Origin: Pseudomonas alcaligenes
GTDB taxonomy: Bacteria > Pseudomonadota > Gammaproteobacteria > Pseudomonadales > Pseudomonadaceae
Direction: 5' to 3'
DNA: 64,000 nucleotides
NCBI RefSeq assembly: GCF_014490745.1
Contig: NZ_LZEU01000001.1
Coordinates: forward strand, 496,001 to 560,000
Both the position numbers and the translations under genes were made by a program. Below the pieces are notes generated by a model, which was given only the letters and a program-made list of their open reading frames with translations, did not search any database and was not told the origin of the DNA. Numbering within the stretch: position 1 is the stretch's first letter; the number at the start of each line of letters is the position of its first letter. This document shows positions 5,547 through 63,281 of this stretch, in pieces.

Positions 5547-5561
5547 CGGCGGTGGCTGTCC

Positions 5562-14451: not shown

Positions 14452-14457
14452 GGGTTT

Positions 14458-14558: not shown

Positions 14559-14577
14559 CTGCCAGGCGCGAACAGAC

Positions 14578-16781: not shown

Positions 16782-16784
16782 TGC

Positions 16785-17045: not shown

Positions 17046-17055
17046 TGCGACGTCC

Positions 17056-40603: not shown

Positions 40604-40640
40604 GTTAGTTGTAGGTTGGGGCAGTCTGCAGGCGCTGCTC

Positions 40641-40720
40641 CAACTTGAACACCGTGCCGGCCTAACCTGATACACGGCGCCGGAAAGGCTTGAACACCCT
40701 GCTGGCGAAAATGATTCGCC
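40641..40720 (+). repeat. Copy A of an rhs-flanking repeat
   Basis: AACTTGAACACCGTGCCGG followed by similar sequence recurs at 53462-53540 (copy B), about 75% alike by eye over some 78 bases. Both copies lie just downstream of an rhs tip and immunity gene. It marks an old rhs module boundary. Confidence 0.65.
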
Positions 40721-40828: not shown

Positions 40829-41335
40829 TCAGATCGCGCTTGACTTGCTCTCTGCGGCCTTTATAAGTTCATCTTTTGAAGTGGGCGTGTTGAAGTTTGA
40901 TATCCACATCTTCATGCCGTCCTTTATGTGGCTGCACGCCTCAATTGCCTCTTGATATAGCTCCAGCTTCACGAGGGTATATGCCCTGAGAAATACAAGC
41001 TCGTCAGTGTATGGCGTATGCGTTTCAGGCAGCTCTGCAATGCCCATGTTCACTGTTCGATATGCATCCTTGAATTTTCCAGCTCTAATTAAATATAAAG
41101 AGGCAAAGAAGATGTCCGCCTCCTCTTGGGCCTCGTCGATAAGCTCAAGGCGATCACCAATGGCTTGCTGATAGTCACCTAGTAAACTGTGTATATGGGA
41201 TCTCTTGCGTAAAAGATCTCGATGCTCAGCGGAGTTCTTCTCTTCTAGCAGGATGTTGCAAAGAATGAGGGCCTCATCGTAATTTTTATTTTTGATGAGG
41301 GCGTCTAGCTTTTTGATATCGGTTAATTGATTCAA
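40829..41335 (-). CDS. TPR-like putative immunity protein
   Basis: A 168-residue acidic helical protein with repeated short helix pairs ([56 protein letters not shown]) like tetratricopeptide repeats. The codons are AT-richer than the backbone. It directly follows a truncated rhs tip, with a TTG start at 41335 overlapping the tip stop as TTGA and a GGAGG 12 bases upstream; this is the usual place of an immunity gene. A longer frame from 41371 also starts TTG. The function is inferred from position only. Confidence 0.6.
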
Positions 41336-41835
41336 TTTACTCTGTTGCCTCCGCAGCGTTGGGAAACACAACCCATCATGCAGGTGTTCCAGCTACCCCC
41401 CCATACATGTTGTCGGTTGGGGTCAGACATTGAGTCCTCACAGATTTGCTCGCAGTGTTTGACTTCGTCCTCACAGGGCTCTTCGTCGTCTTCAGAGCAC
41501 CACTCAATAGCTTTGTCAGCTGCATGCCCAAGAGCTGTGCCTAGAGCGCCGCCGATTGCCACGCCAGCAGCTACTTCTGCAGGTGTAGCAAGAATATTCA
41601 GCCCGCCTGTTGCCGCATCAACAACCAAAGAGCCTCCAACTGCAACAGCTCCACCAGCCACGGCTCCAGTTGCCCCCCAAGATTCGGCGAGTTCCAGTCC
41701 AAATGGATCAATAAATCTCAGAGGATTTCCTGTGACATAGCCATAGGTATTCAGCCCGCCCCTTAGCCCAATCGGATCGCTCTCGACGTAGCGCCCGAGC
41801 TGCGGGTCGTAATCGCGGAAGTAGTTGTAAAGGAA
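41332..41835 (-). pseudogene. 5'-truncated rhs remnant: core end plus Cys-rich tip
   Basis: Read on the minus strand it opens [22 protein letters not shown], the conserved rhs core end, and continues through a Gly/Ala-rich stretch to a tail with seven Cys (last residues CGGNRVN). A stop codon lies 18 bases before the first core residue, and upstream DNA is unrelated, so the body of the gene is gone. The closest related core is in the rhs gene at 53825-56524, about 85% alike by eye over 100 bases. This looks like a displaced rhs tip kept with its immunity gene. Confidence 0.8.
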
Positions 41836-41862
41836 TTTTCCCGATTACCCGCTTGGGCGAGG

Positions 41863-42264
41863 TTATGCAGTCCTGACTTCGTTCAGCAGTTCGGGGTGGC
41901 GATCAAGCACCTTGAGCAGTTTCACCAGGGCCAGCGGAGGCTTGGTCTTGCCGTTCTCGTAACGCGAGAACGCATTGACGCCGCCGCCGAAAATTTCAGC
42001 TGCCTCACGTTGGTCGAGGGCGAGCTTCTTGCGGACGTTGGCGATGAAGTTCGGGTCGACGATCGAAGCATTCACCTGCTTGTTAAACCCCAGCATCGCT
42101 GCACTGACGCGGGCCGACTCACCTGCATCCAGAACCGTCTCGCCGCAGGCCGGGCAGAAGTCGCCGGTTACTGCCGGAATAGTGGTCGACTCGTTCTTGT
42201 AGGTGTACGGCAGGTCACGGGTGTCGTGCACCAGTTCCGCCGCTGCGCAGGATGGACATTTCAT
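41863..42264 (-). CDS. mqsA: MqsA-family antitoxin
   Basis: A 133-residue antitoxin with an N-terminal zinc domain (Cys3, Cys6, Cys37, Cys40 in CPSC and CPAC) and a C-terminal HTH (about 65-130; VRKKLALDQREAAEIFGGGVNAFSRYE). It would bind MqsR and repress the operon. The ATG at 42264 has AGGAG 8 bases upstream; an ATG at 42270 overlaps the toxin stop as ATGA but sits too close to that site. Its stop is 27 bases from the rhs remnant. Confidence 0.93.
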   Translation of the reverse strand: MKCPSCAAAELVHDTRDLPYTYKNESTTIPAVTGDFCPACGETVLDAGESARVSAAMLGFNKQVNASIVDPNFIANVRKKLALDQREAAEIFGGGVNAFSRYENGKTKPPLALVKLLKVLDRHPELLNEVRTA

Positions 42265-42266
42265 GT

Positions 42267-42563
42267 TCATAGCTCCTTGAAGGACACGATGAGCACATCA
42301 TCAATGACCGTGAGTTTCAGGTAGACCTCTCCGGCTTCCGTGTCCGTCCGATACACGTCTTGCCAGACCGTGTGATCGGCGTGCGTGGTCATGCTCTTGT
42401 AGAAATCTGCCGGGGCCAGCGCCATGACAACGCCGACGATGCCCTCAAAGTCGAACCCCAACGCCGCCCCTCCAGTCAGGGCGGACATGGTGGAGCGCAC
42501 TTTCCCAGCTTCGACCAAGGCTTTGACGGTCGTCAGCTTGCAGTGCGGAGTTCTTTTTTCCAT
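42267..42563 (-). CDS. mqsR: MqsR-family mRNA interferase toxin
   Basis: A 98-residue toxin with the RelE-like MqsR fold: EKRTPHCKLTTVKALVEAGKVR at the N-terminus and DFYKSMTTHADHTVWQDVYR in the middle, very close to E. coli MqsR. It cleaves mRNA at GCU. The toxin gene precedes the antitoxin gene, as in E. coli. The pair should be regulated by MqsA at the operator at 42575-42589. Confidence 0.95.
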   Translation of the reverse strand: MEKRTPHCKLTTVKALVEAGKVRSTMSALTGGAALGFDFEGIVGVVMALAPADFYKSMTTHADHTVWQDVYRTDTEAGEVYLKLTVIDDVLIVSFKEL

Positions 42564-42635: not shown

Positions 42636-43586
42636 TCAGCGGTCGGAGCCTCGGGCCGCCGGATGCGTTTTGCTGTAAACGCCTTGCAGATCCGTGATGG
42701 TCACATGGGTGTAGATCTGGGTGCTCTCGATGCACAGGTGCCCGAGCATTTCCTGCACATACCGAATGTCCGCTCCATTGCGCAGCATGTGTGTCGCGGT
42801 GGCGTGGCGAAGGGCGTGGCAGGAGCCGCTCTTACCGATGCCGGAGCGGCGAATGCACCGGCCAACAAGCTCGGTCAGTTTGCTCTTCTGGATGCGCTTG
42901 CCTGTTCCTCCAAGAAAGAGCGCTTCACCGCTGGCCATTGTTGCCAGCTTGCTGCGGAGTTCGCTGAGATACCGCTCAATCGAATCGAGTGCCCGCTGTG
43001 CAATGGGAACCCGTCGATCCTGACTACCTTTCCCTTTGCGAACGGTGACGATCTGATGTTTGAAATCCACGTCCCGAATATCCAGCCCGGCCAACTCGGC
43101 TCGGCGTATACCGGTGGCGTAATAGACCTCCAGGATGGCCCGATCCCTTAGCCCCATCCGGCCGTTGATCGTCGTCTGATGCAGGATGGGCTCGATCTCT
43201 TCCTCGTCAGGGATCTGCTTGGGTATCTGCCTCGGTACCCTGGGCAACGGGAACCTAGCGTAGGGCTCCGACTGTAAGATGTCGTAGGCATGTAGGCGCT
43301 TGAGAAGGCCGGTCACCGCCATCAACCGCATGCGCTGGGTCGAGAGTTCCAATGGCTCGTGATCGCGACGCTTGCGGTAGCGATAAAGGTACTTGCGATA
43401 GCGCTCCAGCAAATCCAGATCGACCTGCGAAACATCGCAAATACCCTGCGGCTGGCACCAGAGCACGAACTGCTGCAGCAGCGCTGTCTTGGTGGTGGCC
43501 GTCGCATCACTTTGTCCGCGCGCCAGGCAGTCCTCGATGTAGAAGGACACACACCCTGACAGGCTGCTCGGATAATCAGTGTTCAT
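42636..43586 (-). CDS. Tyrosine recombinase, XerC/D-like
   Basis: A 316-residue site-specific recombinase. All catalytic residues are present, counted from the GTG at 43592: Arg163 (GIRRAEL), Lys188 (GKG), His259 and Arg262 (CHALRH), His285 (LGH) and the nucleophile Tyr294 (QIYTHV). It has the SAM-like N-terminal domain. It follows the TOPRIM-like gene with an 11-base overlap; the ATG at 43586 is 5 bases from GGGAGG. It lies in one operon with IS21 genes, which is not the usual IS21 content. Confidence 0.92.
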   Translation of the reverse strand: MNTDYPSSLSGCVSFYIEDCLARGQSDATATTKTALLQQFVLWCQPQGICDVSQVDLDLLERYRKYLYRYRKRRDHEPLELSTQRMRLMAVTGLLKRLHAYDILQSEPYARFPLPRVPRQIPKQIPDEEEIEPILHQTTINGRMGLRDRAILEVYYATGIRRAELAGLDIRDVDFKHQIVTVRKGKGSQDRRVPIAQRALDSIERYLSELRSKLATMASGEALFLGGTGKRIQKSKLTELVGRCIRRSGIGKSGSCHALRHATATHMLRNGADIRYVQEMLGHLCIESTQIYTHVTITDLQGVYSKTHPAARGSDR

Positions 43587-44430
43587 GGCCACCTCCCTTG
43601 CTCTCCGGCAGCGCCAAGGCGTCCTTCAGCAAGCGCGACAGCTCCGCTGCTGGGTCATCCACCGACGAAGCAAAGCCGTTGCCGTCCAAGCCGAGAGGAA
43701 ACAAAACCACGCGCACCTCGATACTGTTCTCAGCAAGCAGATGGGCGATCCGGCGAGCCTCATCCAGCTCGGGGCGAGAAGTGCCAAAGGCGATGTAGAT
43801 CAGCTTGATCAAACTGTTCTGCAGGAGGTGCAGGTGCTCATCGTCAAAGCCGGCGAACCCCTGGATGGCCGCCACGTTTCTATGGCCGTGGTACCACCAG
43901 GTCAATGCCTCGATTGGGCTTTTGCAGAGAATCAACTCGGGAAACTCGAACAGCGCCGCCTGGTTGAAGAAGCCGCGATGCTCCAAATGCCAGTGCACGT
44001 GATAGGCCGAGTGTGCCGTCAGCTTGGGCGTGATCCGCCGCCCATAGCCACCGAGGATCTGCCCTTGCTGATCGAGCATTGGAAACAGCACTGCTCCACG
44101 AAACAGCTCGTGTCCCGACGTCCTTAGCAGCCCGACACGCTGCAAGGCACCTCTGATCATCTCCTCCTGCAGGCGGCTCATCTTGCGCAAATGATGACCC
44201 AGGGACCGGTCTGCAAAGCCCAGACGAAAGTGAGCCAAGAGATCGAGCCGATAGATACCTCGGCGTTGTAAAAAGGCTAGAGCCTTCGAGTGATTGCGCA
44301 GGGTTTCCGAGTAGTAGTCGAGCACCTGGTTGACCACCAGTCTGTCGGCCATGCCGTCGTTATAGGCGCAGCGAAGGATGGGGTAATGGATCAGCACATC
44401 CTGGTGCTGAATCTGATGGGGTTCGTACAT
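43576..44430 (-). CDS. DnaG-primase-like protein with degenerate TOPRIM domain
   Basis: A 284-residue protein resembling the catalytic core of DnaG. Residues 35 to about 85 match the primase lead-in (YYSETLRNHSKALAFLQRRG, FRLGFAD), and about 165-235 match a TOPRIM domain. In place of the usual Glu-Gly of the first TOPRIM motif it reads LCKSPIEALT, and in place of Asp-x-Asp it reads IAFGTSRPELDEA, so the metal-binding acids look lost. No CHC2 zinc finger is visible. It lies 2 bases from istB and overlaps the recombinase. The role is unknown; not a working primase by these residues. Confidence 0.72.
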   Translation of the reverse strand: MYEPHQIQHQDVLIHYPILRCAYNDGMADRLVVNQVLDYYSETLRNHSKALAFLQRRGIYRLDLLAHFRLGFADRSLGHHLRKMSRLQEEMIRGALQRVGLLRTSGHELFRGAVLFPMLDQQGQILGGYGRRITPKLTAHSAYHVHWHLEHRGFFNQAALFEFPELILCKSPIEALTWWYHGHRNVAAIQGFAGFDDEHLHLLQNSLIKLIYIAFGTSRPELDEARRIAHLLAENSIEVRVVLFPLGLDGNGFASSVDDPAAELSRLLKDALALPESKGGGHEH

Positions 44431-44432
44431 AG

Positions 44433-45182
44433 CTAGTCCTCCCCATCTTCGAGGCCATGTTTTTTACGCATGGAGTCGCCGCGCATCTCGATCTTGTGTG
44501 CCCGGTGCACGATGCGATCCAAGATGGCATCTGCCAGCGTCGGCTCGTTGATGTACTCGTACCACTTGGTTGCTGGCAGCTGGGAGGCAATCAGGATCGC
44601 CCCGGCCCCAGTTCGGTCATCGACGAACTCCAACAGATCCTGCCGGCCGATATCAGAGAGCGGCGACATGCCCCAATCGTCGAGGATAAGTAGATGGCAT
44701 TTCGCGAGCCTATTGCGAAAGCTGACAAGAGAACCGTCAGCCCTGGCAATTTCGGTTTCTTCCAGCAGGCGGCTGACCCGGTGATAGGCGACGGACCAGC
44801 CGCGTCGGATGGCCTGCATGCCGAAGGCGCAAGCCAACCAGGTTTTACCGACGCCGGTAGGCCCGGTAATGAGCAAATGCTGATGGCGCTCGATCCATTG
44901 GCACTGCCCGAGCGACAGCAGCTGTGCCTTATCCAGACCGCGCCGTGGCCTGTAGTCGATATCCTCCAGGCAGGCGTTGCGCATCTTTAACTTCGCCTGC
45001 GCCATAAGGCGTCGCTGCCGACGATTGTCACGATCATGGAACTCCGCCTCGACCAGCAGAGCAACGCGATCACTGAATGGCAGGCTCTGTGTGCTGGGAC
45101 TTTCCAGCTGTGCAGTTAGGGCGCTGGCCATACCAAATAACTTCAGCGCTTGAAGCTGCTCGATTGTCTGCTGCTCATTCAT
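44433..45182 (-). CDS. istB: IS21-family helper ATPase IstB
   Basis: A 249-residue AAA+ DnaC-like ATPase that regulates the IstA transposase. Walker A GPTGVGKT is at 107-114 and Walker B LLILDDWG near 170. The ATG at 45182 overlaps the istA stop by 8 bases. The gene is intact and is followed after 2 bases by the TOPRIM-like gene. Confidence 0.95.
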   Translation of the reverse strand: MNEQQTIEQLQALKLFGMASALTAQLESPSTQSLPFSDRVALLVEAEFHDRDNRRQRRLMAQAKLKMRNACLEDIDYRPRRGLDKAQLLSLGQCQWIERHQHLLITGPTGVGKTWLACAFGMQAIRRGWSVAYHRVSRLLEETEIARADGSLVSFRNRLAKCHLLILDDWGMSPLSDIGRQDLLEFVDDRTGAGAILIASQLPATKWYEYINEPTLADAILDRIVHRAHKIEMRGDSMRKKHGLEDGED

Positions 45183-46719
45183 GGCGGTTCTCCTCGGCGT
45201 AGTAGTCGGAGCCGCGTACATTGGCGTGGGGCGGGATCAGGACGGCAGCGGGATGCACGGGCCGGTGCAACTCATCCAGCCGGTGCTGCAGGATGGATCG
45301 CAGGCTCTTGATCGTTGGCGATTGGATGGCCAAGGCCCTCGCGCAAGCCGCCTCGACCCTGGCATTGCCGTAGTTCTTGGCCAGGTGCTGTAACTGCTGG
45401 CAGGCCTTGCTGCCGGCGACGGAAAAGTCAGCCTTACCCTGAAACTGCGCCTGCACGACCTCCGCGGTAGCCGTACCAAGACCACAAGCCCATTCGAGGT
45501 AGTGGTGCGCGGTCCGTGAGGCATAGGCTTGGTGAGCTTCTGGGCGGTGATTGGGGTTAGTTGACGCTTCCCCCGGTGTGTCGTCGCGAGGGTGAATAGC
45601 TACTCGCTTATTCAGGTGGAACAGGGCAATAGTCGAAGAGCTAATGCGGGCCTCTACCCGTTCTCCTACCAAGCGCCAGGGGACCGAGTAGGCGTGGTTC
45701 AGCACATAGACGTGGTAGTCCGGGCCAACCTTCTGAGCGGCCATCCACTCGCCGTACTCATAGGGGGTTGGTGGCAGTGTTTTCAGAGCAGGCTTATCCA
45801 GCTCCTGGAATCGCTCGAAGCGATTGCCGGGCAGGCGTTTGAAGGAACGCCGATTCAATTTCTCCAGCAGCTCAGCCAAAGCAGCGTTGATCTCTTCCAG
45901 GCTGAAAAACTGCCGTCGACGAAGAGGCATGGTCACCCACAGCGTGGCTAGCTTCACGCCGAGCTCTGCTTTGGATTTGTCCTGAGGTCTTCGTACCCGA
46001 GCTGGTACCACCACGAAACCGTAGTGCTCTGACAATTCCTGGTAGGTCTTGTTGATTACGGGCTCGCTGCCTGGAGTGATCACCGCGGACTTGAGATTGT
46101 CCGGGATCACCGTCATCGGTACACCACCGAAGAACTGGAACATCCGGTTGTGCGCCTCAATCCAGTCCGGTGACTTTTGGCTGGCACAGGCCCAGGCAAA
46201 AAGGTAGTTGGAACAGCCCAGTACGGCGACGAAGAGCTGGGCCTCGCGTTGCTTGCCGCGCACGGCGTCAAACCACGGAATAGTCTGGCCAGCGAAATCC
46301 ACAAAGATGCAGTCGCCTGCGTAATGGATCTGCCGCATGGTGATGTCGATCTTGCTCAGGAACTCGCGGTAGTAGCAGGTGAACTGTGAGTAGGAGTAGG
46401 CCGCTGACTTGAGTTGATCGCGGTATTCCTCCCAGAGCTGGATCAAGGTCTGGTGTTTGGCCTGCATCAGTTTATGGATGGCCACCCAGTCCGGCATGAC
46501 CTTGCCATTTTCCTGCTGCCGAACTCCGCGAAGGCAGGTTTTCAGTTGGCGATCGTCCATGTCCTGGACGGCTGCCCAGTCCCATTCGTTGGCTTGCGCG
46601 ACAGACACGATCCTTTTGACGGTATTGATGGAAATGCTCGCCAGCCTGGCAATTTGTCGCTGACTCATGGTCGAGCAGCAGTGGAGATGCAACGCCTTAC
46701 GGTAGGTTTGAACTTGCAT
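45175..46719 (-). CDS. istA: IS21-family transposase IstA
   Basis: A 514-residue DDE transposase with an N-terminal HTH (SQRQIARLASISINTVKRIV), the catalytic acids Asp141 (VDFAGQT), Asp207 (IPDNLK) and Glu252 (DKSKAELG), and the C-terminal Mu-like region. It appears intact. A GGAGGG ribosome site precedes the ATG. A structured leader (46720-46986) lies upstream. Confidence 0.95.
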   Translation of the reverse strand: MQVQTYRKALHLHCCSTMSQRQIARLASISINTVKRIVSVAQANEWDWAAVQDMDDRQLKTCLRGVRQQENGKVMPDWVAIHKLMQAKHQTLIQLWEEYRDQLKSAAYSYSQFTCYYREFLSKIDITMRQIHYAGDCIFVDFAGQTIPWFDAVRGKQREAQLFVAVLGCSNYLFAWACASQKSPDWIEAHNRMFQFFGGVPMTVIPDNLKSAVITPGSEPVINKTYQELSEHYGFVVVPARVRRPQDKSKAELGVKLATLWVTMPLRRRQFFSLEEINAALAELLEKLNRRSFKRLPGNRFERFQELDKPALKTLPPTPYEYGEWMAAQKVGPDYHVYVLNHAYSVPWRLVGERVEARISSSTIALFHLNKRVAIHPRDDTPGEASTNPNHRPEAHQAYASRTAHHYLEWACGLGTATAEVVQAQFQGKADFSVAGSKACQQLQHLAKNYGNARVEAACARALAIQSPTIKSLRSILQHRLDELHRPVHPAAVLIPPHANVRGSDYYAEENRHE

Positions 46720-46986: not shown

Positions 46987-47289
46987 TCAGGGATCACCTC
47001 CTTGCTCACGATTGGGTGAAACGCCCAGCGCGGCACTGAAGCGCTGCTCGGCCAGATAGCGCGCAACGTCCTTCACCAACGCGTGCTTTCCACGCCGGTG
47101 CTCCAGGTTAAACAGAGGTACTGCGACGGTGTTTCGCATCCGCGACTGCCGGAAAGCCTCTTTCGACGTGTAGCCCAAAGCACGCAGCAGCTCATCCCCG
47201 CTCATTACAGGGCCGTAGCGGCCCAGCAAATCGCTCTCAAGGCTTTTGGCAAGCTCATCAACCAGCAGGGCTTTTTCTGCTTCGTCCAT
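46987..47289 (-). CDS. Small winged-helix-like protein of mobile elements
   Basis: A 100-residue protein with the segment GRYGPVMSGDELLRALGYTSKEAFRQS followed by VPLFNLEHRRGKHALVKDVARYLAEQR. This pattern resembles small DNA-binding or excisionase-like proteins of integrative elements: a helix-turn-helix core, then a basic beta wing and an AEQR helix. It lies upstream of istA but with a terminator between them. The start is the first ATG; the ribosome site is weak. Function unknown. Confidence 0.6.
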   Translation of the reverse strand: MDEAEKALLVDELAKSLESDLLGRYGPVMSGDELLRALGYTSKEAFRQSRMRNTVAVPLFNLEHRRGKHALVKDVARYLAEQRFSAALGVSPNREQGGDP

Positions 47290-47493: not shown

Positions 47494-48336
47494 ATGGAAT
47501 ATTTTCCGATATTGCCAGAGGCTGTGAGATCAATACGTAGCAAATACTATGTTGGCGTACTTCTTTGGCGCCTCGAAGCAAAACGAGTAGCTCAAATTCC
47601 TGCGGCTCTTGATGGGTTAATGCAACTCCCGGAGGTGGGGTGTTTCTCAAAATATCGCAGCGATCTGTTTAGATACTGGAGTGGTTCCCACATAAAAAAT
47701 CCAGACTTTGTCGCCGATGTAAATCGTGCATTGCCGGGGACTGCCAGAATTTTAACTCACCCTGTATGGGAGTTAATTTCAGGGCCGATCGCAACAGGGA
47801 GTGTTTTGGTTACGCTTGCTCAAATGCTGAGCCCTGACCTTAATAAGTACATTATTAAGTACGATGAAACGATTCAGGAAGTCATATTCAAGAGGTTCTC
47901 AATAAGAAATCTTCGGGTAAGCGATGGCTCCAACTTTCTGCGTGCGATAGATAGGCGAGGGCTCGACGAGTTGGCCGCGCTGCTGGTGTTAATTAGGGCG
48001 CAGGAAATGCAAGGAAACTACGCCATATCTCAGCGCCTGAGGAAATTGCTCCTCAATTTCTTTATAGAAATAAGTCATCTGGATGAATTTCAAGCAGTTG
48101 TTGTGCGGATATTTCAACAGACTTGCCAGGTATTTTTTGATGATTTTCACAAGGATGCTAATGGTTTGGGATTCGAGTTTATGCTCGAAAATGGCCTGGA
48201 AAATCTTGACTATACACTCGGTGTTATTGAGCAGATCTCATCAATGGAGCCTCGCCGAGATGATCCATATAGCAGCATTCTCGGCGGCGCCAGAAACTTG
48301 GAGATAGGTGGCAACTCTAGAGCTAAGTCACATTAA
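47494..48336 (+). CDS. Protein of unknown function in the AT-rich island
   Basis: I do not recognise this 280-residue protein. It is mostly helical and has no clear signal peptide; a hydrophobic patch occurs at about 93-115 (PVWELISGPIATGSVLVTLAQML), perhaps a buried helix. The codons are AT-rich against the GC-rich backbone, and stop codons are sparse in this frame, so it is likely to be real. It lies near the KAP/HEPN pair on the plus strand and may belong to the same imported region. Confidence 0.6.
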   Translation: MEYFPILPEAVRSIRSKYYVGVLLWRLEAKRVAQIPAALDGLMQLPEVGCFSKYRSDLFRYWSGSHIKNPDFVADVNRALPGTARILTHPVWELISGPIATGSVLVTLAQMLSPDLNKYIIKYDETIQEVIFKRFSIRNLRVSDGSNFLRAIDRRGLDELAALLVLIRAQEMQGNYAISQRLRKLLLNFFIEISHLDEFQAVVVRIFQQTCQVFFDDFHKDANGLGFEFMLENGLENLDYTLGVIEQISSMEPRRDDPYSSILGGARNLEIGGNSRAKSH

Positions 48337-52068: not shown

Positions 52069-52289
52069 CAGAATTCCTTTTCGAGGTGATGATGGCTATA
52101 TGGTAGCACCATTAATGGCAAGGGAGCAGACTGGAAAAATCCTTGTTTCTTAAGGTTTAAAGCTTCGTGATGCGGCTGTCCTAAGCGCTTGCTAGGGAGC
52201 CATTCCGGCGACTAGACACCATAAAACAATCAACCTAGTGCTAAGGGATTAAATTCGGGTGCAAATATTGAAACTCATATAACCCGTGC
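52069..52289. promoter_or_regulatory. Divergent AT-rich promoter region of the KAP and HEPN genes
   Basis: This 221-base region holds no gene. It should carry promoters for both genes; AT-rich patches such as TTAAGGTTTAAAGC (52150-52165) and TGCAAATATTGAAAC (52260-52275) are visible, but I cannot place -35/-10 boxes with confidence. No clear palindromic operator is seen. Confidence 0.4.
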
Positions 52290-53273
52290 ATGCCAACACA
52301 TAACGACTTATTTTCTAGAAGCCACGAGCAAGAGACATTTATGAAGTTCACATTCATTACTGCGCTGGATTACTTGAGCATTCCTCAGAAAATTGAATGC
52401 AAGGTTGGATTTGACAACAGCCTCAGCCTAACCAATGACACGGAGAGAGTGTCTGCGCTTATTGAGGCTTATCATGCTAGCTGCATGGGAGAGCTAGAGC
52501 ATAACCACTTACTATCTGGGCGCCCCGTAGTTTATGTCGAGAGAGATGTGCCTGGCCCGCATCATGTGTCTGACATGCTGGTCGATTTTCTTCGAGAGGT
52601 CCAGAGCCTCCTAGGTGAGCTGTGGTTGTGGAAAGATAATAGTATCAACTGTCAGCAAGCGTTCGCTTTGGCTAAGAATATGCCTTCGACATCTAGCAAC
52701 TGCCTTCCTGTATTCAACTCATCTGCTACTGGAGAGGATATCAATACACGCATAACTGCGGACGAATTTGTTGGGGTGATAAAATCTCGGGTCGTGCAGA
52801 TAGACAGCTTTAAGGAAAGCAATATTCCAAGGCAAACATCTATAAGGAAGTCAACGGGGCGATTGAATGTTGCCTTGTATCATTTGCAGAATGCTAGGAA
52901 TAATAGGGATCTTGGGTTCAAAATTGCCAATTATTGTAGTTTCTTTGAGGCGCTTTTTAGCACTGACACTGCGGAGCTTTCTCATCAGCTATCACAAAGA
53001 ATATCCTTTTTCTTGCATGACTGCCCTAATAAGCGTCTGGAAATGTACAGGATGACTAAGAAGGCTTATGCGGTCAGGTCAAAGACGGTTCATGGCGATA
53101 TGCTGGACAGCTCAATCTCAAACCTGAGGGATATTTCTTTGCATTGCGACGATATTGCCCGGGGGTGCCTTATGAAGATATTCAAGAACCAGCATCTATT
53201 TGATATTTTTAACTCTCATTCAAAAGAGAAGGTTTCAAACTACTTGGTTGAGATGGTTTTTGGTGTTTCTTAA
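52290..53273 (+). CDS. HEPN-domain (Apea-like) protein
   Basis: A protein of up to 327 residues with an unknown N-terminal part (about 1-180) and a C-terminal HEPN-like domain. The RNase motif RX4H is Arg263-SKTV-His268 (AVRSKTVHGD), and FFEALFSTDTAELSHQLSQRISFFL precedes it as in the Apea-HEPN family, whose members are found in anti-phage systems. The first ATG is 52290, but an ATG at 52341 (residue 18) has an AAGAGA site and may be the true start. AT-rich, divergent from the KAP gene. Confidence 0.68.
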   Translation: MPTHNDLFSRSHEQETFMKFTFITALDYLSIPQKIECKVGFDNSLSLTNDTERVSALIEAYHASCMGELEHNHLLSGRPVVYVERDVPGPHHVSDMLVDFLREVQSLLGELWLWKDNSINCQQAFALAKNMPSTSSNCLPVFNSSATGEDINTRITADEFVGVIKSRVVQIDSFKESNIPRQTSIRKSTGRLNVALYHLQNARNNRDLGFKIANYCSFFEALFSTDTAELSHQLSQRISFFLHDCPNKRLEMYRMTKKAYAVRSKTVHGDMLDSSISNLRDISLHCDDIARGCLMKIFKNQHLFDIFNSHSKEKVSNYLVEMVFGVS

Positions 53274-53588
53274 TCATTATCATCTTGAGCCTCCACCTAT
53301 GAGATATACGGGGCTACATGGCTGTCTTGCTCATAAGTGGGTTAAAAGCAGTAAGGTGCTGCGCTAGCAGTAGAGTGTTCAGGTTTTTTCGGCTCAAGGT
53401 GTCAGCTTCGGCCAGCAGACCGTAATAAATCTACCGGCCCCCACATATGTAGGGACTGCATCAACTTGAACACCGTGCCGGTACAACCTGATACCTTGAA
53501 CCGATAAAGTGTGAACGGCCTGCTGGAGAAACTGATTGGTGCACAGTGGAGCACTGCGGCCTATTAATAGGCCGCAGCAGGAGTAGTT
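53274..53588. other. Intergenic region with copy B of the rhs-flanking repeat
   Basis: This 315-base gap has no gene. Bases 53462-53540 match the copy at 40641-40720 (AACTTGAACACCGTGCCGG start). The rest is unremarkable. Confidence 0.6.
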
Positions 53589-53828
53589 TTATTTTTTGCT
53601 GTGAGTATGAAAAGCGTAGAGCCTGGCTATTATGCTGTAGCCAAAATCAGCAAGTTCTTTCTCATCAAACACCAGGCTTTCAAATTGAGCTTTATCATAG
53701 TCTTTGAATGTATATAGAGCGTCTTGGCTCCAAGTTTTCCCACCCTGCTGATTAAGGTCGTCGAGGCAGACTCTCAATGTTCCAGGGTCTTCTTCTATTA
53801 GCCTCACAAGAACTGCTTTCTTGCTCAT
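53589..53828 (-). CDS. Small putative immunity protein of the rhs locus
   Basis: A 79-residue acidic protein (SKKAVLVRLIEEDPGTLRVCLDDLN start), with no family that I recognise. The ATG at 53828 overlaps the rhs stop as ATGA, so translation is coupled to the Rhs protein. This is where an immunity gene sits in other rhs loci; the role is inferred from position. Confidence 0.62.
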   Translation of the reverse strand: MSKKAVLVRLIEEDPGTLRVCLDDLNQQGGKTWSQDALYTFKDYDKAQFESLVFDEKELADFGYSIIARLYAFHTHSKK

Positions 53829-56524
53829 TTTGTTCCCCATGGTGGAAGTGGCGGGTTCACATCGCTGCCTCGCAAGCAGCGAGCATATCTAGCCATTGCT
53901 TGTCCTTCACATATTTTGTATGCAGAGGCCCCATCCCTTTTGCCAAGGGCAGCGCAGGTTGCTAGGTCTATTTCTAGCCTTTCTTCGCAGACTTTCTCTT
54001 TGTCTGGACACTCTTCGGCATCGTCGTCTGAGGTTGCCCATACCAGGCCACCAAGGGCAGCCCCTCCAACCCCATAGACAGCCCATTTGGGCCAGGCGAA
54101 ATCTGAAGGCTCAGGTATTGCGGTGTCTGTAGCGACCCAAGTACCCCACGCCGCCAGCGCAGTCTCTCCTGCCAAGCCACTTCTATCGCTGTAGCCAAGC
54201 GGATTGCCCATGACGTAGGCATAGGTGTTCAGCCCGCCATTGAGCCCAATCGGATCACTCTCCACATAGCGCCCGGTCTGCGGGTCGTAATCGCGGAAGT
54301 AGTTGTAGTGCAGGCCACTTTCACTGTCGTAGTACTGCCCTGGGAAACGCAGGTTGATGGAGTTCAAACCGCTGCCGACGGCATTGGTTGCAACGCCGTA
54401 GCCGAATGCATCGGACTTCCAGCGCCAGACTTCCTGGCCGGCCTGGTTGGTAGCCAGGCGCGGGGTGTTGAGGTGGTCGCTGTGCAGGTAGAAGACGGTG
54501 CTGGAGCTGATGGCGCCGGCCGCGTCGAAGTTCAGGGTGATGCCGCCGAGCGGCATGCTGTCGAGCCACAGGTAGTACTGGCTGCTGAGCTTGAGGCCCT
54601 GGCTGCTGTAACGGTTCTCGCCGAGCAGCTGACCATCCGGGCCGTAGAGGAAGGTGGTGGTCGCGGTCTCGGTGATCTTGTGGGTGCGTTGGCCGAGGGC
54701 GTTGTAGCGGTACTCGGCAACCAGTGTGCTGCCCAGCGTAACTTTGCTTAGCCGGCCCTGGGCGTCGTACTCCAGGGCGCGGTTGGCGCGATCCTGGGTC
54801 AGGTTGCCTGCGGCATCGCTGGTCACTGGCTGGTTATCGACCTGGGTCAGGCGGTTGCTGGTGCTGGCATAGCTCTGGGTGGTGACGGTACTGGTCTGCG
54901 CCTGGCCATCGACGATGGGCGTGACGGTCTTGCTGGTGCGGTTGCCGACGGCGTCGTAGCTGTATTCCTGACGCTGGGTGGCGTGCTCTTCGGCAGTCAG
55001 TCGGTCGAGCTTGTCGTAGCTGTAGGCCAGGTCGCCGAACAGGTTGCTCTGCAGGCTCTGGATATTGCTGTTGGCATCATAGCCATAGCTGGCCTGCCAC
55101 ACGCCGACGTTCTGCTGGCTCAGGCGGTAGTCCTGGTCATAGCTGCGCGCCAGGCTGATGCCGTTGGCCCAGGTCAGGGTCTTGAGCGGGCCGAAGGGCA
55201 GGTAGCTGATGTTGTAGGCCAGGGCCGCAGGGGGCTGGGAGCCCATGACGATGTCGACTTCGCCGACCTGGCCGGCAGCGTTGCGCTGGTATTGCACGGT
55301 GAAACCGGCGGGGTAGGCGATGCTGCTCAGCTGGTTACTGTTGTCGTAGCCGTACTCCAGGCTGTCGTAGGTGTCATTGTTCACCACCACTACCGAGCGG
55401 ATCTGCTCGACCAGGTTGCCGCGCTCATCGTAGCGATAGCCCAGTACGCCGCTGGCATCCTGCACGGCGGTCAGACGGCCGATGCCCTTGTTGCCTTCGG
55501 CGGTCATGTCGTAGTGGTACTGCACGTTGAGCGCCGGAGTGGCCGGGTACTGGCGACCGGTCAGGCGGTTCAGGGCATCGTAGCTGTAGGTGGTGACCAC
55601 GCCACGGGCGTCGGTCTTGCTCAGCACGTTGCCGGCCGCGTCGTGGGTGTAGGTGGTGGTGCCGCTGTCCGGGCTGAGCAGTTGGGTCAGGTTGCCCAGG
55701 CCATCGTAGTGGTACTGGGTGGTAACGCCGCGCGGGTCTTGCACCTGGGTCAGGTTGTCCTGGGCGTCATAGCCGAGCGCTGTAACGCCATTGAGCGGAT
55801 CGGTGCTCGACACCAGACGGTTCAGCGCGTCGTAGCTGCTGACGGTGCTGTCCTGCTTGGGCGTGGTGCTGCGCGTGGGATTGTTGTTGAGGTCGTAGCC
55901 ATACTGGCTGGCCTGGCCGGCGGCGCCGACACTGCGCAGCAGGCGGCCCAGCTCGTCATACACCCAGCTCTGCTGCTGGGTGAGGTTGCTGGAGGCATCC
56001 TTCAAGCGCTGGGCGGTGCGGTTGCCCATGGTGTCGTAGTCGTACTCGACCGCTTCACCCAGGTTGTTGGTGATCCGGGTCAGGCGACGAGCGCCGTTCC
56101 AGGTGTACTCCAGCCAGCTGCCATCGCCACGGGTGACCTTGGTGATCTGGCCGATGGCATCGTGTTCGAAACTGGTGGTGCTGCCAGCAGTGCTTACCGA
56201 CGTCAGCCAACCCTGCGGGGCATAGGTCAGGCTGGTGACTACGCCGTTGGGGTCGATCACCGTTTGCGGGTTGCCGAACACATCGAAGTTGGACAGCTGG
56301 GTGATGTGCCCCAGGGCATTGGTGACCTGGGTCAGGTGGCCCTGGGCATCGTAGGCGTAGGTGGTGACATCGGCGACGTCGGTGCGCGGGCCGTCGGCGG
56401 TTTCCACCAGGCCCAGGCTGTTGTAGGTGTAACTCCAGCTGCGTTCGGCGGCCTGGGCTGCGGGCAGCCCCAGGGCAGAGGCCAAGGCCAGAGCAAGCAG
56501 GCTTGCTCGGTGCAAGGTCTTCAT
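53825..56524 (-). CDS. Rhs-repeat protein with Cys-rich C-terminal tip
   Basis: An 899-residue exported protein. Residues 1-25 are a Sec signal peptide (LLALALASALGLPAAQA). About 26-755 hold many YD/RHS repeats (YDAQGHLTQV, YDALNRLTGRQY and so on), ending in the conserved core DPIGL at 757-761. The C-terminal about 115 residues are a different tip: a Gly-rich hydrophobic stretch near 817-829 and a tail with five Cys, ending PPLPPWGTK. The N-terminus lacks the DUF6531-type domain, which is present instead in the tandem genes upstream. Toxin activity cannot be told. It is followed by an immunity-like gene. Confidence 0.88.
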   Translation of the reverse strand: MKTLHRASLLALALASALGLPAAQAAERSWSYTYNSLGLVETADGPRTDVADVTTYAYDAQGHLTQVTNALGHITQLSNFDVFGNPQTVIDPNGVVTSLTYAPQGWLTSVSTAGSTTSFEHDAIGQITKVTRGDGSWLEYTWNGARRLTRITNNLGEAVEYDYDTMGNRTAQRLKDASSNLTQQQSWVYDELGRLLRSVGAAGQASQYGYDLNNNPTRSTTPKQDSTVSSYDALNRLVSSTDPLNGVTALGYDAQDNLTQVQDPRGVTTQYHYDGLGNLTQLLSPDSGTTTYTHDAAGNVLSKTDARGVVTTYSYDALNRLTGRQYPATPALNVQYHYDMTAEGNKGIGRLTAVQDASGVLGYRYDERGNLVEQIRSVVVVNNDTYDSLEYGYDNSNQLSSIAYPAGFTVQYQRNAAGQVGEVDIVMGSQPPAALAYNISYLPFGPLKTLTWANGISLARSYDQDYRLSQQNVGVWQASYGYDANSNIQSLQSNLFGDLAYSYDKLDRLTAEEHATQRQEYSYDAVGNRTSKTVTPIVDGQAQTSTVTTQSYASTSNRLTQVDNQPVTSDAAGNLTQDRANRALEYDAQGRLSKVTLGSTLVAEYRYNALGQRTHKITETATTTFLYGPDGQLLGENRYSSQGLKLSSQYYLWLDSMPLGGITLNFDAAGAISSSTVFYLHSDHLNTPRLATNQAGQEVWRWKSDAFGYGVATNAVGSGLNSINLRFPGQYYDSESGLHYNYFRDYDPQTGRYVESDPIGLNGGLNTYAYVMGNPLGYSDRSGLAGETALAAWGTWVATDTAIPEPSDFAWPKWAVYGVGGAALGGLVWATSDDDAEECPDKEKVCEERLEIDLATCAALGKRDGASAYKICEGQAMARYARCLRGSDVNPPLPPWGTK

Positions 56525-56543
56525 CGGTCAGTTCCTTCTGTCA

Positions 56544-58187
56544 TTAAAGTGAGTTAACAGTGCGGCTCAGTTGCCGTCCCTGGGTGTCGTACTGGTAATG
56601 GGTCACCTTGCCTGGCTCGGTTACCGTCTGTGGCAAGAACAGCGTCGGGTGCCATTCGGTGGTGATGGTGCGAGCCTGGGGCGTGCCGGAGGCCTCGGTA
56701 CGGGATATCTCCAGGCCGCGGCTGTTGTAGGTGTAGGTGGTCAAGTAACCCTTGTTGTCGGTCTTGGTCTTGAGCAAGCCGTTGCTGTCGTAGGTGAAGC
56801 TGGAGTTGCTGTTGGGGCAGTTCGGCGAAGGCTCGCCCTGGATCGAGGTGATGCGGCGCACACCCTTGATGTACTGGAAGCTGTACTTCGCCACCTTGCC
56901 CAGTTCGTTGGTCACCGACACCGTGCCGTCGCTGTTGTAGGTCACACTGACATGTTCGGCGCCATCCGCGTGCTCACTGGAAGTGGCGCGTCCCTGATCG
57001 TCATACGCCCAGGTCGCATAGCGCACGCCGCGCTCATCAGTGATGCCGGTGAGCAGGTCAGGTTTGCCCGCGACTTCATAGTGGAACTGGCGCTGGGTAG
57101 TTTGCCCGCCAGCGACACGAGTTAACGAGGTCAGGCGTTTGCTGGCGTTGTAGGTGTAGGTGATCTGCACGCCGGGCGCGGTTAGGGTCAGCGGCTGATG
57201 ATCGGCATCTTCGGTAAAAGACAGGCTGTTGCCAAGGTTGTCGGTGACCGTGACCTGGCTGCCAGAGTAGGTGAACTGCTGCACTGCGCCGTGGGCATCG
57301 CTCCATTGGGTGAGCTTGCCGGCGGTATTGAAAGTGAAACGCTCATTGGCCGTCGAAATGTATTGCCAGCCTGTCGTACCGGTTTTGCTCAGCACGCCAA
57401 GATCGGCAGAGGTTGGGGTGACCGTCGTGCCGCTGACGGTGAAAAACGACTCGCGGCCGTGGGCCATTACCACCGACACATACTGAGTGCCGGCAAAACG
57501 CAGGTAAGTCGAAAAGTTGTGACGCCACAGGCCATCGAGGCTGTTGTAGCTGCGTGCAAAATTCAGCACTGAATTTCCGCTGGCTGAATAATCGGCTTCA
57601 GTTTGGAATTTGTTGCCGATAGCGAAGTTAATCGGGTTGCCCGCAATAGATATGTTCTCTGTTGGTGGCGCTCCAGCACTGCATGACTGTTGTGGTGGGC
57701 CTTTCTGTTCATCAGGACTACAAGCCCCTGTTACCAGATTCGGGTTAACATCATTTGTACAGGTGTCGCCAGAGCGCCAGAGAACATTCAAAGAGTCAAA
57801 AACGACCGGATTGGTGTAGTCACTGGGAACCCATGATCTAATTGATGATGCCCCGCAGCTGTAAAAATAACCAGCAATCTGTCCGTATTTATTTTTGTTT
57901 GTGGAGTAGCCATATTTCCCTGTTCTGTTTATATATTTTACTGACGTGTTACCTTTTATGGAGTCGGTTTCTCTTTTGTCTAGTATTTCATTGCAGCCAA
58001 TCCAGGGGTCGGCATAGGGTTTAGTTGTAATGTCTTCCTTCCAAGTGATTGGTGAGCCAGCACGTGCCGGTGAGGTCGCTAATAGAAGGCTGAGAGATGC
58101 ATAAATTTTCCAATTTAATTTTGGTGTGTTTGAAAATATTTTATTGACTAGTGGTGTGAAGTGGGGCGCGAGTTTTATTTTTAGCAT
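56544..58187 (-). CDS. Exported Rhs N-terminal-half paralogue 1
   Basis: A 547-residue protein. A signal peptide lies at about 27-43 (WKIYASLSLLLATSPARA). A variable AT-rich leader to about residue 180 ends in a Cys motif (C..NP.LVTGAC..DEQKGPPQQSC). A conserved DUF6531-like and YD region follows (NPINFAIGNKFQ, RESFFTVSGTTVTPTS) and stops at YQYDTQGRQLSRTV, with no tip. It is 19 bases upstream of the rhs gene and may act with it as the missing N-terminal half. It is one of four tandem paralogues. Confidence 0.82.
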   Translation of the reverse strand: MLKIKLAPHFTPLVNKIFSNTPKLNWKIYASLSLLLATSPARAGSPITWKEDITTKPYADPWIGCNEILDKRETDSIKGNTSVKYINRTGKYGYSTNKNKYGQIAGYFYSCGASSIRSWVPSDYTNPVVFDSLNVLWRSGDTCTNDVNPNLVTGACSPDEQKGPPQQSCSAGAPPTENISIAGNPINFAIGNKFQTEADYSASGNSVLNFARSYNSLDGLWRHNFSTYLRFAGTQYVSVVMAHGRESFFTVSGTTVTPTSADLGVLSKTGTTGWQYISTANERFTFNTAGKLTQWSDAHGAVQQFTYSGSQVTVTDNLGNSLSFTEDADHQPLTLTAPGVQITYTYNASKRLTSLTRVAGGQTTQRQFHYEVAGKPDLLTGITDERGVRYATWAYDDQGRATSSEHADGAEHVSVTYNSDGTVSVTNELGKVAKYSFQYIKGVRRITSIQGEPSPNCPNSNSSFTYDSNGLLKTKTDNKGYLTTYTYNSRGLEISRTEASGTPQARTITTEWHPTLFLPQTVTEPGKVTHYQYDTQGRQLSRTVNSL

Positions 58188-58208
58188 CTTGCTACGAGGG
58201 CTCCATGA

Positions 58209-59741
58209 TTATCGTTCTTCTACAGTTCGGCTGAGTTGCCGTCCTTGGTTATCGTATTGGTAACGGATGATACGGTTGGGCTCGGTTACCGTCTGTGGCA
58301 AGAACAGCGTAGGGTGCCATTCGGTGGTGATAGTGCGAGCCTGGGGCGTGCCGGAGGCTTCGGTGCGGGATATCTCCAAGCCTCGGCTGTTATAGGTGTA
58401 GGTAGTTAGGTAGCCCTTGTTATCGGTCTTGGTCTTGAGCAGGCCGTTGCTGTCGTAGGTGAAGCTGGAGTTGCTGTTGGGGCAGTTCGGCGAAGGCTCG
58501 CCCTGGATCGAGGTGATGCGGCGCACGCCTTTGATGTACTGGAAGCTGTACTTCGCCACCTTGCCCAGCTCGTTGGTTACCGACACCGTGCCGTCACTGT
58601 TGTAGGCAACCCCCACATGCTCGGCGCCATCCGCATGCTCGCTGGAGGTGGCACGCCCCTGATCGTCATACGTCCAGGTCGCATAACGCACGCCGCGCTC
58701 GTCGGTGATGTCGGTGAGCCAGGAGTTGTTGCGGCTGTCTTCGTAGTGAAACTGGCGCTGGGTGGTTTGGCCGCCAGCTGTGCGAGTCACTGAGGTGAGG
58801 CGCTTATTGGTGTTGTAGCCATAGGTGATCTGTACACCCGGAGCACTTAGGCTCAGCGGCTGGTGACTGCTGTCTTCGGTGAAGGACAGGCTGTTGCCGA
58901 TATTGTCGGTAACCGTGACCTGGCTGCCGGAGTAGGTGAGTTGCTGCACGGCACCGTGGGCATCGCTCCACTGGCTCAGCTTACCGGCGGAATCGAAGGT
59001 GAAGCGCTCGTTAGCCGTTGAGGTGTACAGCCAGCCGGTGCCGCTCTTGCTGAGTACACCCAAGTCGGCGGACGTGGGAGTGACTGTCGTGCCGCTAACA
59101 GTGAAGAAAGATTCGCGGCCGTTGTGCATGACTACCGATACGTACTGAGTACCGGCAAAACGGAGGTAGGTCGAGAAGCTGTGGCGCCAAATGCCATCGA
59201 GGCTGTTGTAGCTGCGAGTGAAGCTCAGTGATGAGTTATCGCTGCCTGAATAGTCGGTATCAGTCTGGAACTTATTGCCAATAGCAAAATTTATAGGGTT
59301 TCCGGCAGCTGTGCTAGGGCAAGTTTGTGGTGTTCCTTTTTGTTCATCTTTACTGCAAATTCCAGCTGTGGGGTTGTTTTGCAAGTCGTTTAAGCACTCA
59401 TTCCCTCTTCTTCCTAAGCTATAAGTCAAGCTTTCGTATATGCTTCCGCTGGCTCGTTTTGTCGTGTACTTGCAGTCTGCAATTTGGGGGGGTCTAATTT
59501 TTGTTATTTGGGCTTGCGTCACAAGGCCATTAGTTGGTTTTCTAAAATCTGCATAAGCTGTGCATGCACTTTCCGGTGTAAGAAATTTTGCTGGGGCGGG
59601 GTCGGATGGTGAAGACCAAGTCCAGTAATACTCTTCAGCTGAGGAAGTAGGGGATGTTACGGTCACCGCCAGAAATAGAAAAATTGCGATTTTCTTGTCA
59701 GATAACAATGTGAGTGTCGGTGCATTTATGATGGAGGTCAT
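58209..59741 (-). CDS. Exported Rhs N-terminal-half paralogue 2
   Basis: A 510-residue protein, with hydrophobic signal IAIFLFLAVTVTSPTSSA at about 18-35, then AEEYYWTWSS and a variable leader. The Cys motif is ECLNDLQNNPTAGICSKDEQKGTPQTC. The conserved half (NPINFAIGNKFQT to YQYDNQGRQLSRTV) matches the other paralogues almost fully by eye. It is 21 bases from paralogue 1. Confidence 0.82.
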   Translation of the reverse strand: MTSIINAPTLTLLSDKKIAIFLFLAVTVTSPTSSAEEYYWTWSSPSDPAPAKFLTPESACTAYADFRKPTNGLVTQAQITKIRPPQIADCKYTTKRASGSIYESLTYSLGRRGNECLNDLQNNPTAGICSKDEQKGTPQTCPSTAAGNPINFAIGNKFQTDTDYSGSDNSSLSFTRSYNSLDGIWRHSFSTYLRFAGTQYVSVVMHNGRESFFTVSGTTVTPTSADLGVLSKSGTGWLYTSTANERFTFDSAGKLSQWSDAHGAVQQLTYSGSQVTVTDNIGNSLSFTEDSSHQPLSLSAPGVQITYGYNTNKRLTSVTRTAGGQTTQRQFHYEDSRNNSWLTDITDERGVRYATWTYDDQGRATSSEHADGAEHVGVAYNSDGTVSVTNELGKVAKYSFQYIKGVRRITSIQGEPSPNCPNSNSSFTYDSNGLLKTKTDNKGYLTTYTYNSRGLEISRTEASGTPQARTITTEWHPTLFLPQTVTEPNRIIRYQYDNQGRQLSRTVEER

Positions 59742-59786
59742 AGGGTTTTAAGTCGCTTGGAATTGGTTTGTAGCCTTGAAACCACT

Positions 59787-61322: not shown

Positions 61323-61384
61323 AAAACCTTCCTTGGTTGACCAGGGGGCAATGCACGATTTTCGCTGTGCTTTTCGAAGCCATG

Positions 61385-62890: not shown

Positions 62891-63281
62891 CCGTGATTAA
62901 TGAGAGTCTGCAGGTTGTTCTGTCGTTTGGTTTTGTCTGCTTTCTGCGAGTCGTTGGGGCGGTTGCAGCCACAGTCAAGTAATTTCTCTGTCATTTATAT
63001 ATTAAGTGCAGCGTGCTAGCGCCGGTGAAGCTATTGTGCCAGTCGTGAGTTGGCTGCCGAAGTTGGTGTGTATCAAATATTTAATATCGGCGGTAGGCAG
63101 GAGTGGCTCGAAGCGTAATATTTTGGGGCGGAGAGCGTTTCATATAAGGTGCAAGTCCATCTGCAGTGATAGTCGCTGAGTCGTGTCACGTTAAAACAAC
63201 TTGGTACTCTCTCGCCAGAGTGTCTCCTGCACAGGGGGCAGCCAGAGGGCATCGCTCCGGCGCAGGTGAGGGGCGTAGCAC
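62891..63281. promoter_or_regulatory. AT-rich upstream region of the rhs paralogue array
   Basis: This 391-base region has no gene. It should hold the promoter of the array (minus strand) and end at the msrA stop. TTTATATATTAAGTG at about 62995-63009 and TATCAAATATTTAATATC at about 63070 are the AT-rich parts. I saw no terminator for msrA with a good T-run. Confidence 0.5.

Follow-up and report, generated by a model that had tools for sequence, protein, structure and literature searches.

An IS21-family transposon of Pseudomonadaceae with a probable second recombination system that targets rhs toxin genes

What do a TOPRIM-like protein and a tyrosine recombinase do in the operon of an IS21-type transposon? 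The question is raised by a 64,000-nucleotide stretch of the 4.97 Mb genome of Pseudomonas alcaligenes (G000:C1:496001-560000; hereafter, the window), in which istA, istB, a short DnaG-like gene and a XerC/XerD-like recombinase gene follow one another on the minus strand. An earlier note on this DNA proposed a transposon with two integration modes, or one that resolves cointegrates or targets replication. All evidence on the element comes from sequence comparison, and it points to an IS21-family transposon of about 12–25 kb that has gained another recombination system, whose site lies within rhs toxin genes (probability roughly 0.78). The element appears to use one machine to jump to other DNA and another, unrelated one to enter a toxin gene, which receives a new tip while the old one is displaced. 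The proposal of two integration modes is well supported by one linear insertion with a 6-bp duplication, set against six abutted-end copies behind an rhs core end. Nothing in the comparative data speaks for cointegrate resolution or replication targeting, at which no test was aimed.

A search for other istA-istB-TOPRIM-recombinase operons was made in Pseudomonas and Pseudomonadaceae genomes and in genome_contigs. It gave eight elements in total: the window, six other Pseudomonadaceae genomes (G093, G1140, G1173, G1215, G1185, and G1049), and one event on a Pseudomonas aeruginosa plasmid, pPUV-9 (L044). The G1185 sequence (L004, Pseudomonas cuatrocienegasensis) begins within the element, and the G1049 copy is split over contigs C135 and C58, the latter being L005 (Pseudomonas sp. 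PIC25). Five loci, among them the window, G093, G1173, and G1215, carry both rhs core ends on a single stretch and are called complete loci below; counts of end junctions refer to the six genome copies in which the left side is covered.

The coordinates of the open reading frames (ORFs) confirm that the four genes overlap or touch in one operon. istA and istB overlap by 47 bp if the longest frame is taken and by 8 bp if istB begins at MNEQQ, where RefSeq places its start in pPUV-9. Only 2 bp separate istB from the gene for the TOPRIM-like protein (TOP), which in turn overlaps the recombinase gene by 17 bp, counted from the GTG start of the latter. The operon stands where it was first described, at 42,636–46,719, and the element extends far beyond those limits. 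All four genes are together in 8 of 8 elements, with the G1049 copy split between contigs within the third gene. The recombinase has kept its catalytic residues, as claimed from the window: R, K, HxxR, H, and Y, which we take to be the catalytic motif of tyrosine recombinases, match their positions in XerD (1a0p) across residues 87–303, and the seven copies compared have no internal stops. Its score against NF002331 (332.8 bits) is below the model cut-off of 371, and an integron integrase model with a cut-off of 265 gave 115 bits.

A family sample of 398 Pseudomonadaceae genomes, with at most three IstA candidates scored per genome, was used to determine how the genes are distributed. IstA of at least 80% identity and short TOP of at least 71% identity occurred in the same seven genomes. 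The next IstA relatives reach no more than 46% identity, and several of their genomes carry two or three copies. Within the source genome, the window IstB is the only strong match (239 bits); two further IstB matches are near the cut-off and lie in larger frames. An order-wide search with the recombinase (E ≤ 1e-110, 293 genomes) returned the source genome only, and a class-wide search with TOP (E ≤ 1e-25) returned 10 of 369 genomes, namely the source genome and nine with matches of at most 38% identity, most of them in frames of 840–1080 aa. Among the matches listed for 398 Pseudomonas genomes, the close form of TOP was present in G000 and G093, six more genomes had matches at 35–38% identity in longer frames (two of them cut by contig ends), and the remainder were weak and mostly in DnaG-like frames of 640–780 aa. 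Search patterns did match viral contigs, where no TOP or IstA relative was confirmed. The earlier note had allowed that the four genes might be together only here, or that the recombinase and TOPRIM genes might lie mainly away from IS21; this check did not refute its reading as one element, although longer relatives of the TOP-recombinase pair without istAB do occur in the loci read.

The pPUV-9 copy defines the ends of the element. This insertion of 24,686 bp has the same operon inside, is absent from the sister plasmid pPUV-4, and lies in an unrelated gene, flanked by a 6-bp target duplication (AGGGGG) when compared with the empty pPUV-4. It is linear, left to right, starting with TGTAGGG and ending with CCCTACA, and has shared inner repeats. 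Because two further pPUV plasmids are identical to pPUV-9 over 24,001 bases, with the leftmost 5.5 kb of the insertion outside the query, the three plasmids were counted as one event. IS21 target duplications range from 4 to 8 bp, and the duplication seen in this one event falls within that range. The termini are inverted repeats (TG...CA) with two repeated sites per end, as in the IS21 family. Sites of the CTGCTG type are present at both positions (28 and 73) of the left end in five of six junctions; in the right end, position 73 is occupied in six of six and position 28 in only two of six when judged by motif.

Alignment of the copies, which the earlier note had recommended for finding ends and target, located both the IS21-type ends and a site in rhs. 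With the pPUV-9 ends as probes, the right and left ends of the window element were found to abut directly behind the active rhs tip. The same order is present in all six genome copies: an rhs core end with its tip, the right end, a spacer of exactly 2 bp, the left end, and then cargo and operon. The six spacers are all different (TA, GG, AG, GA, GC, and TG), which suggests separate events. Among 122 loci, the junction pattern matched element loci only; it missed G1173, where the junction is visible by alignment. The contrast between a 2-bp junction and a 6-bp duplication fits the available text of PMC3299598, which counts IS21 among the families with an abutted-end minicircle and states that the distance at the junction is shorter than the direct repeat. 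The accessible part of PMC10122671 describes IS21 ends with L1/L2 and R1/R2 sites and a terminal CA.

In the window, a second rhs core end stands directly after mqsA, 12.5 kb from the core end in the active rhs gene, and is followed by an orphan tip. Wherever the right side is covered, the element is followed by such a core end with a body-less tip. Core end to core end, the five complete loci measure 12.5–23.7 kb, and in all five the identity between the two core ends starts at TACAAC, with 0 bp to the left and 12–30 bp to the right. Identity is 80–87% over the 100 bp of the core ends and only 20–29% over the preceding 100 bp. The frame of the active rhs gene passes unbroken through the site in five of five full genes (734–755 codons before, 134–183 after), and in a sixth, from G1049, a contig end cuts the frame 29 codons upstream of the site; the body-less copies have 4–11 codons before the site in eight of eight. 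The element-side arm, ATTAGTT, is kept in seven of eight copies. The G1173 copy has no BLAST match to the others over the 400 bp leading up to the site, yet mean agreement with the other seven copies is 0.84 over the last 8 bases, compared with 0.22–0.29 further out. In the rhs loci the element is flanked by a short identical core at a fixed target; pPUV-9 sits elsewhere.

These arrangements can be joined in one proposed cycle. IstA and IstB would act on both ends, with their TG...CA termini and repeated inner sites, and form a circle in which the right and left ends abut across a 2-bp spacer; the abutted ends are seen, and the circle is deduced from them. Through IstAB, the circle could reinsert at an unrelated target and create a 6-bp duplication, a product seen once, in pPUV-9. 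Alternatively, the XerC-like recombinase, with the catalytically dead TOP as its helper, would join the core-end site of the circle (ATTAGTT-TACAACTACTTC...) to the stretch of a resident rhs gene that encodes YNYFRDYDP. This would place the resident Rhs body in frame with the incoming tip, behind which come the right end, the 2-bp spacer, the left end, the cargo, the operon, in most cases mqsRA, and then the old tip left without a body, which is the arrangement seen. A single circle opened at two points explains, as proposed here, both the linear form in pPUV-9 and the rhs forms. We infer that the recombinase performs the rhs step, with TOP as a structural or DNA-binding partner. In several copies the cargo carries genes for phage defence, so a single event would supply a shield along with the new weapon tip.

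TOP had been singled out earlier as degenerate, reading CKSPIEALT and AFGTSRPELDEA at the places of catalytic acids. Both motifs are present, and alignment to DnaG structures sets them opposite the Glu and the DxD that we take to be the TOPRIM catalytic residues. All 24 homologues that were aligned, out of 31 detected at E ≤ 1e-10, have Lys at the position of the catalytic Glu; the window protein reads GTS where DxD is expected, and the first D is kept in some distant homologues. Since Lys is found throughout the aligned set and the 11 longer CHC2-type relatives read retain E and DxD, loss of the acids belongs to the lineage and not to a single copy. The TOP profile matches the DnaG core structure 2au3 at 4.6e-20 over residues 28–277; its Toprim_2 match is sub-threshold (0.054), and no CHC2 zinc-binding domain was matched up to E = 1, the first match being DNAG_N from residue 39. 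The residue comparison across homologues supports the suggestion that this is a degenerate TOPRIM protein and probably no working primase, and TOP is more likely to act as a non-catalytic (structural or DNA-binding) partner of the recombinase.

Ratios of nonsynonymous to synonymous substitution (dN/dS) were computed from 21 non-independent pairs among seven of the eight copies, all without internal stops; G1049 was omitted because it is split between contigs. Medians were 0.088 for istA, 0.076 for istB, 0.154 for TOP, and 0.112 for the recombinase, and TOP, although it has lost its catalytic acids, is by this measure under purifying selection. Divergence is correlated within TOP-recombinase (0.85) and istA-istB (0.90), and cross-pair values run from −0.07 to 0.28 (TOP versus IstA, 0.07; TOP versus IstB, −0.07). 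The uncorrelated divergence looks as if the istAB and TOP-recombinase halves reassort between elements. A fusion of TOP and recombinase has partial support from four 411-aa TOP homologues (P0022, P0023, P0026, and P0027), which extend into a stretch that resembles the N-terminal part of the recombinase (BLAST 2e-7 to 4e-11) and end before the catalytic part. A further candidate fusion, P0025, had no support (E 0.51).

Modules made of a CHC2-TOPRIM protein of about 1000 aa and a XerC recombinase, without istAB in the operon, are present in plasmids and Pseudomonas genomes, and several are located beside two-partner-secretion or hemagglutinin-type toxin genes. Their TOP-recombinase pair is homologous to that of the element (TOP identity 29–38%), but they keep the CHC2 region and the TOPRIM acids, and their target codons are GAK and VENN. 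Nine such loci were entered in a test for a toxin-internal repeat, and eight were testable (L007 has no downstream sequence). In three of the eight, L009, L011, and L034, the unit is bounded by copies of pre-tip sequence inside the toxin gene, as in the element. L037 has a 92-bp repeat that is not evidently in a toxin frame, with 1.5 kb upstream covered, and L008, L010, L012, and L036 showed no toxin-internal repeat within the stretch examined. In L034 (G364; 4351–19198), a CHC2-XerC unit of 7,415 bp stands in tandem with a repeat identity of 99.99% and is bounded three times by GGTGCAAAAGC[TA]ACTGGT. The first of these boundaries is inside a hemagglutinin-type frame (Pfam) at GGTGCAAAAG, and the same boundary motif occurs in L009 inside tpsA2. 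In L011, an Enterobacter plasmid, a CHC2-XerC unit is duplicated, and its boundary (3074 and 10759) coincides with VENN codons in a hemagglutinin-repeat gene; VENN is the known start of the variable tip of contact-dependent inhibition (CDI) toxins. The Lonsdalea populi plasmid L013 (NZ_CP072857.1; 11,289 bp, 10,318 read), a small circular record, carries toxin/immunity-like genes, one primase-XerC module that is annotated, and a second TOP-like stretch that is not; it may be an excised or replicating circle of a related system.

In comparison with IS21 and IS5376, the element has the same overlapping istA/istB, DDE core, repeated inner end sites, and terminal CA, with a 6-bp duplication in pPUV-9 and an abutted-end junction whose spacer is shorter than that duplication. 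It departs from the family hallmark of a small element with istA and istB only: it also carries the tyrosine recombinase, the TOPRIM-like protein, and an rhs core end with tip, has 6–17 kb between left end and operon, lies at rhs in most copies, and was found once per genome in the searches. Transposons of the Tn3 family with a tyrosine recombinase, such as Tn4430 with TnpI, use the recombinase to resolve cointegrates within the element. The combination of a DDE transposase and a tyrosine recombinase in one element is shared with them; the proposed recombinase site here is instead in a host toxin gene.

The end product, a new tip on a resident body and the old tip downstream, is that of Rhs C-terminal displacement as described in the available part of PMC5727410; here, the two tips are separated by a recombinase-bearing element, and the boundary falls on one fixed base. 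In the portions of PMC5727410 and PMC10539506 that were accessible, displacement occurs through recombination in the core, and tip exchange is ascribed to homologous recombination, with integrases only suspected. The same text of PMC5727410 says that Rhs-associated integrase-like genes need more work, an excerpt of PMC5361080 states that an integrase role had not been demonstrated, and an excerpt of PMC3482391 reports that XerC/D genes adjoin some polyimmunity loci. No account of an element combining IS21, Rhs, and a tyrosine recombinase, or IS21, toprim, and a tyrosine recombinase, was found in the literature searched, which left subscription papers mostly outside. By its transposase, ends, and duplication the element belongs to the IS21 family; the proposed site-specific route and the element's function are not described for that family in the same literature.

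Of the other explanations, the one that fares best has IstAB make the circle and RecA-dependent homologous recombination between rhs core ends insert it, with the recombinase acting otherwise, for example in dimer resolution. The core ends are alike over 100 bp, the general attribution of Rhs tip exchange to homologous recombination (PMC10539506 and PMC5727410, as far as available) lends this account support, and the fixed boundary does not discriminate between the two because the homology ends there anyway. We nevertheless consider it unlikely: the homology is only about 100 bp long and mosaic, with identical runs as short as 12 bp in G1215, a short conserved arm adjoins the boundary on the side outside rhs, purifying selection acts on the recombinase, and the CHC2-type relatives have a matching layout in three of eight testable loci. 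Such short mosaic homology is a poor substrate for RecA.

Plain IS21-type transposition is more improbable still. By this account, a unit running from left end through core end and tip to right end was inserted beside a right end already behind the resident rhs gene, and the recombinase has no integration role. The IS21-type ends would agree with it, as would an extra right-end copy (R') behind the displaced tip in the window, G1173, and G1215, and the recurrence of the 2-bp spacer GA directly after R' in G1173. However, no R' was found downstream of the displaced tip in G093 (6.2 kb), G1140 (19.3 kb), L004 (6.0 kb), or L005 (1.5 kb), and no convincing target duplication was found around the R' copies, the 6 bp before the left end and after R' being unlike in three of three loci. 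The spacer is exactly 2 bp in six of six junctions, and an rhs core end with the site and without the element, in G013, has neither end nearby, although there the frame is short and open and not a full rhs gene. That an IS21 element and a recombinase module are merely chance neighbours is barely credible, for although IstA matched at E ≤ 1e-80 in 47 of the 398 family genomes with short TOP in only seven of them, and distant IstA (at most 46% identity) comes without short TOP, close IstA and short TOP coincide in seven of seven genomes, neighbouring genes overlap or lie almost end to end in the copies read, and dN/dS is low for all four.

Several observations weigh against insertion by the recombinase into rhs as part of an IS21 cycle. 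The circle is deduced from abutted ends and was not observed directly, the linear insertion is a single event, and homologous recombination of an IstAB-made circle at the core ends would give an identical map. R' is present in three of five complete loci (degenerate in the window) and counts against the proposed cycle because its simple form does not require it; R' may be a remnant of an earlier round. The window copy has a diverged arm and L004 has an istB with an altered C-terminus, so some copies may be less active. One TOP-recombinase fusion candidate, P0015, looks like a deletion join. For the window, G093, and G1173, three of the complete loci, tip and flank were searched in 57, 38, and 38 relatives, respectively, and no rhs gene turned up in both a filled and an empty version. 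In G1173, the rhs locus is on a larger island of 39 kb that is absent from G014 and G012 (joined stretch 5861–44965, L085–L087), and a comparison of flanks therefore cannot isolate the element. A weak tyrosine-recombinase match is located at the left end of this island.

Table 1. Coordinates of the element and its surroundings in the window
Feature	Position	Strand	Match or basis
Degenerate right-end copy (R'), outer end ...GCCTGCA	40627..40716	-	end alignment
TPR-like ORF behind orphan tip; candidate immunity gene	40829..41371	-	
Displaced orphan rhs tip; frame with only 5 codons before site	41332..41844	-	
Second rhs core end (attR-like), without rhs body before it	41720..41829	-	
Element-side arm of proposed site, diverged, GAAAATTCCTT	41830..41840	-	
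mqsA antitoxin	41863..42270	-	PF15731, 3.6e-64
mqsR toxin	42267..42563	-	PF15723, 5.8e-34
XerC/XerD-like tyrosine recombinase	42636..43592	-	Phage_integrase 2.8e-40, NF002331 2.4e-99
TOP, short DnaG_N/TOPRIM-like protein, catalytic acids lost	43576..44430	-	DNAG_N 1.6e-9
istB, AAA+ helper	44433..45221	-	NF038214 1.1e-75
istA, IS21 DDE transposase	45175..46719	-	NF033546 4.4e-73; DDE core aligned to IS5376
100-aa ORF, 80–95% identity in 7 copies	46987..47289	-	
280-aa ORF conserved in element	47494..48336	+	
Cargo KAP-family P-loop NTPase, 1094 aa	48784..52068	-	weak PADLOC PifA 3e-7, QatA 2e-6
Cargo ORF, 333 aa stop to stop	52272..53273	+	no Pfam or PADLOC match
IS21-type left end, outer end TGTGGGGGCC at 53445	53355..53445	-	end alignment
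TA spacer of 2 bp where right and left ends abut	53446..53447	.	end alignment
IS21-type right end, outer end ...GTCCCTACA at 53448	53448..53540	-	probe with pPUV-9 ends, alignment
83-aa ORF overlapping tip end; candidate immunity gene	53589..53840	-	inferred from position
Full-length rhs gene (resident body and incoming tip); frame open 740 codons before and 160 after recombination point	53825..56527	-	
rhs core end in active gene (attL-like), begins TACAACTACTTCCGCG, codons YNYFR	54198..54307	-	110 bp, 86% to 41720-41829

The cargo differs from copy to copy, and the distance from the left end to the 100-aa ORF varies between 6 and 17 kb. PADLOC was run on 30 cargo proteins, the 280-aa ORF included. 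Strong matches were DrmA, DrmB, a methyltransferase, and SduA in G093; JetC, JetD, a CBASS cyclase, and TRIP13 in G1140; and LmuA, LmuB, and AbiEi in pPUV-9. G1173 and the window had weak matches only, and three G1049 proteins and several other scanned cargo proteins had no PADLOC match. The CBASS reading for G1215 comes from ORF openings in common with G1140 and not from the scan. The 280-aa and 100-aa ORFs, for which no Pfam or PHROGs match was found, are candidates for regulation or directionality; ORFs with an opening like that of the 280-aa ORF are present at the equivalent place in G093, G1140, G1173, G1215, G1049, and pPUV-9. mqsRA is broken in pPUV-9. A Fic-family gene lies between mqsA and the second core end in L038 (6308–7840) and L044 (25314–26846); the name is taken from the pPUV-9 annotation, and the same opening occurs in G093. 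Upstream of the full rhs gene, at 56544–62896 of the window, are four tandem rhs-like N-terminal fragments (frames of 503–592 aa), which repeat at intervals of 1.58–1.67 kb, are 76–94% alike in the listed families, and have different leaders.

An element with mapped ends and a mapped site turns the continual exchange of Rhs and related toxin tips into a testable question. We tentatively suggest, as a possibility somewhat short of an even bet, that the conserved pre-tip codons of polymorphic toxins (YNYFRDYDP in Rhs; VENN and GAK in two-partner-secretion toxins) are attachment sites of a widespread TOPRIM-XerC tip-swapping system, one branch of which merged with an IS21 transposon and so acquired two ways to integrate and a load of warhead and phage-defence cargo. 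If the cycle proposed here is true, this would be an IS21 element in which the circle can also return by a site-specific path, and it would link the exchange of weapons with the spread of phage defence.

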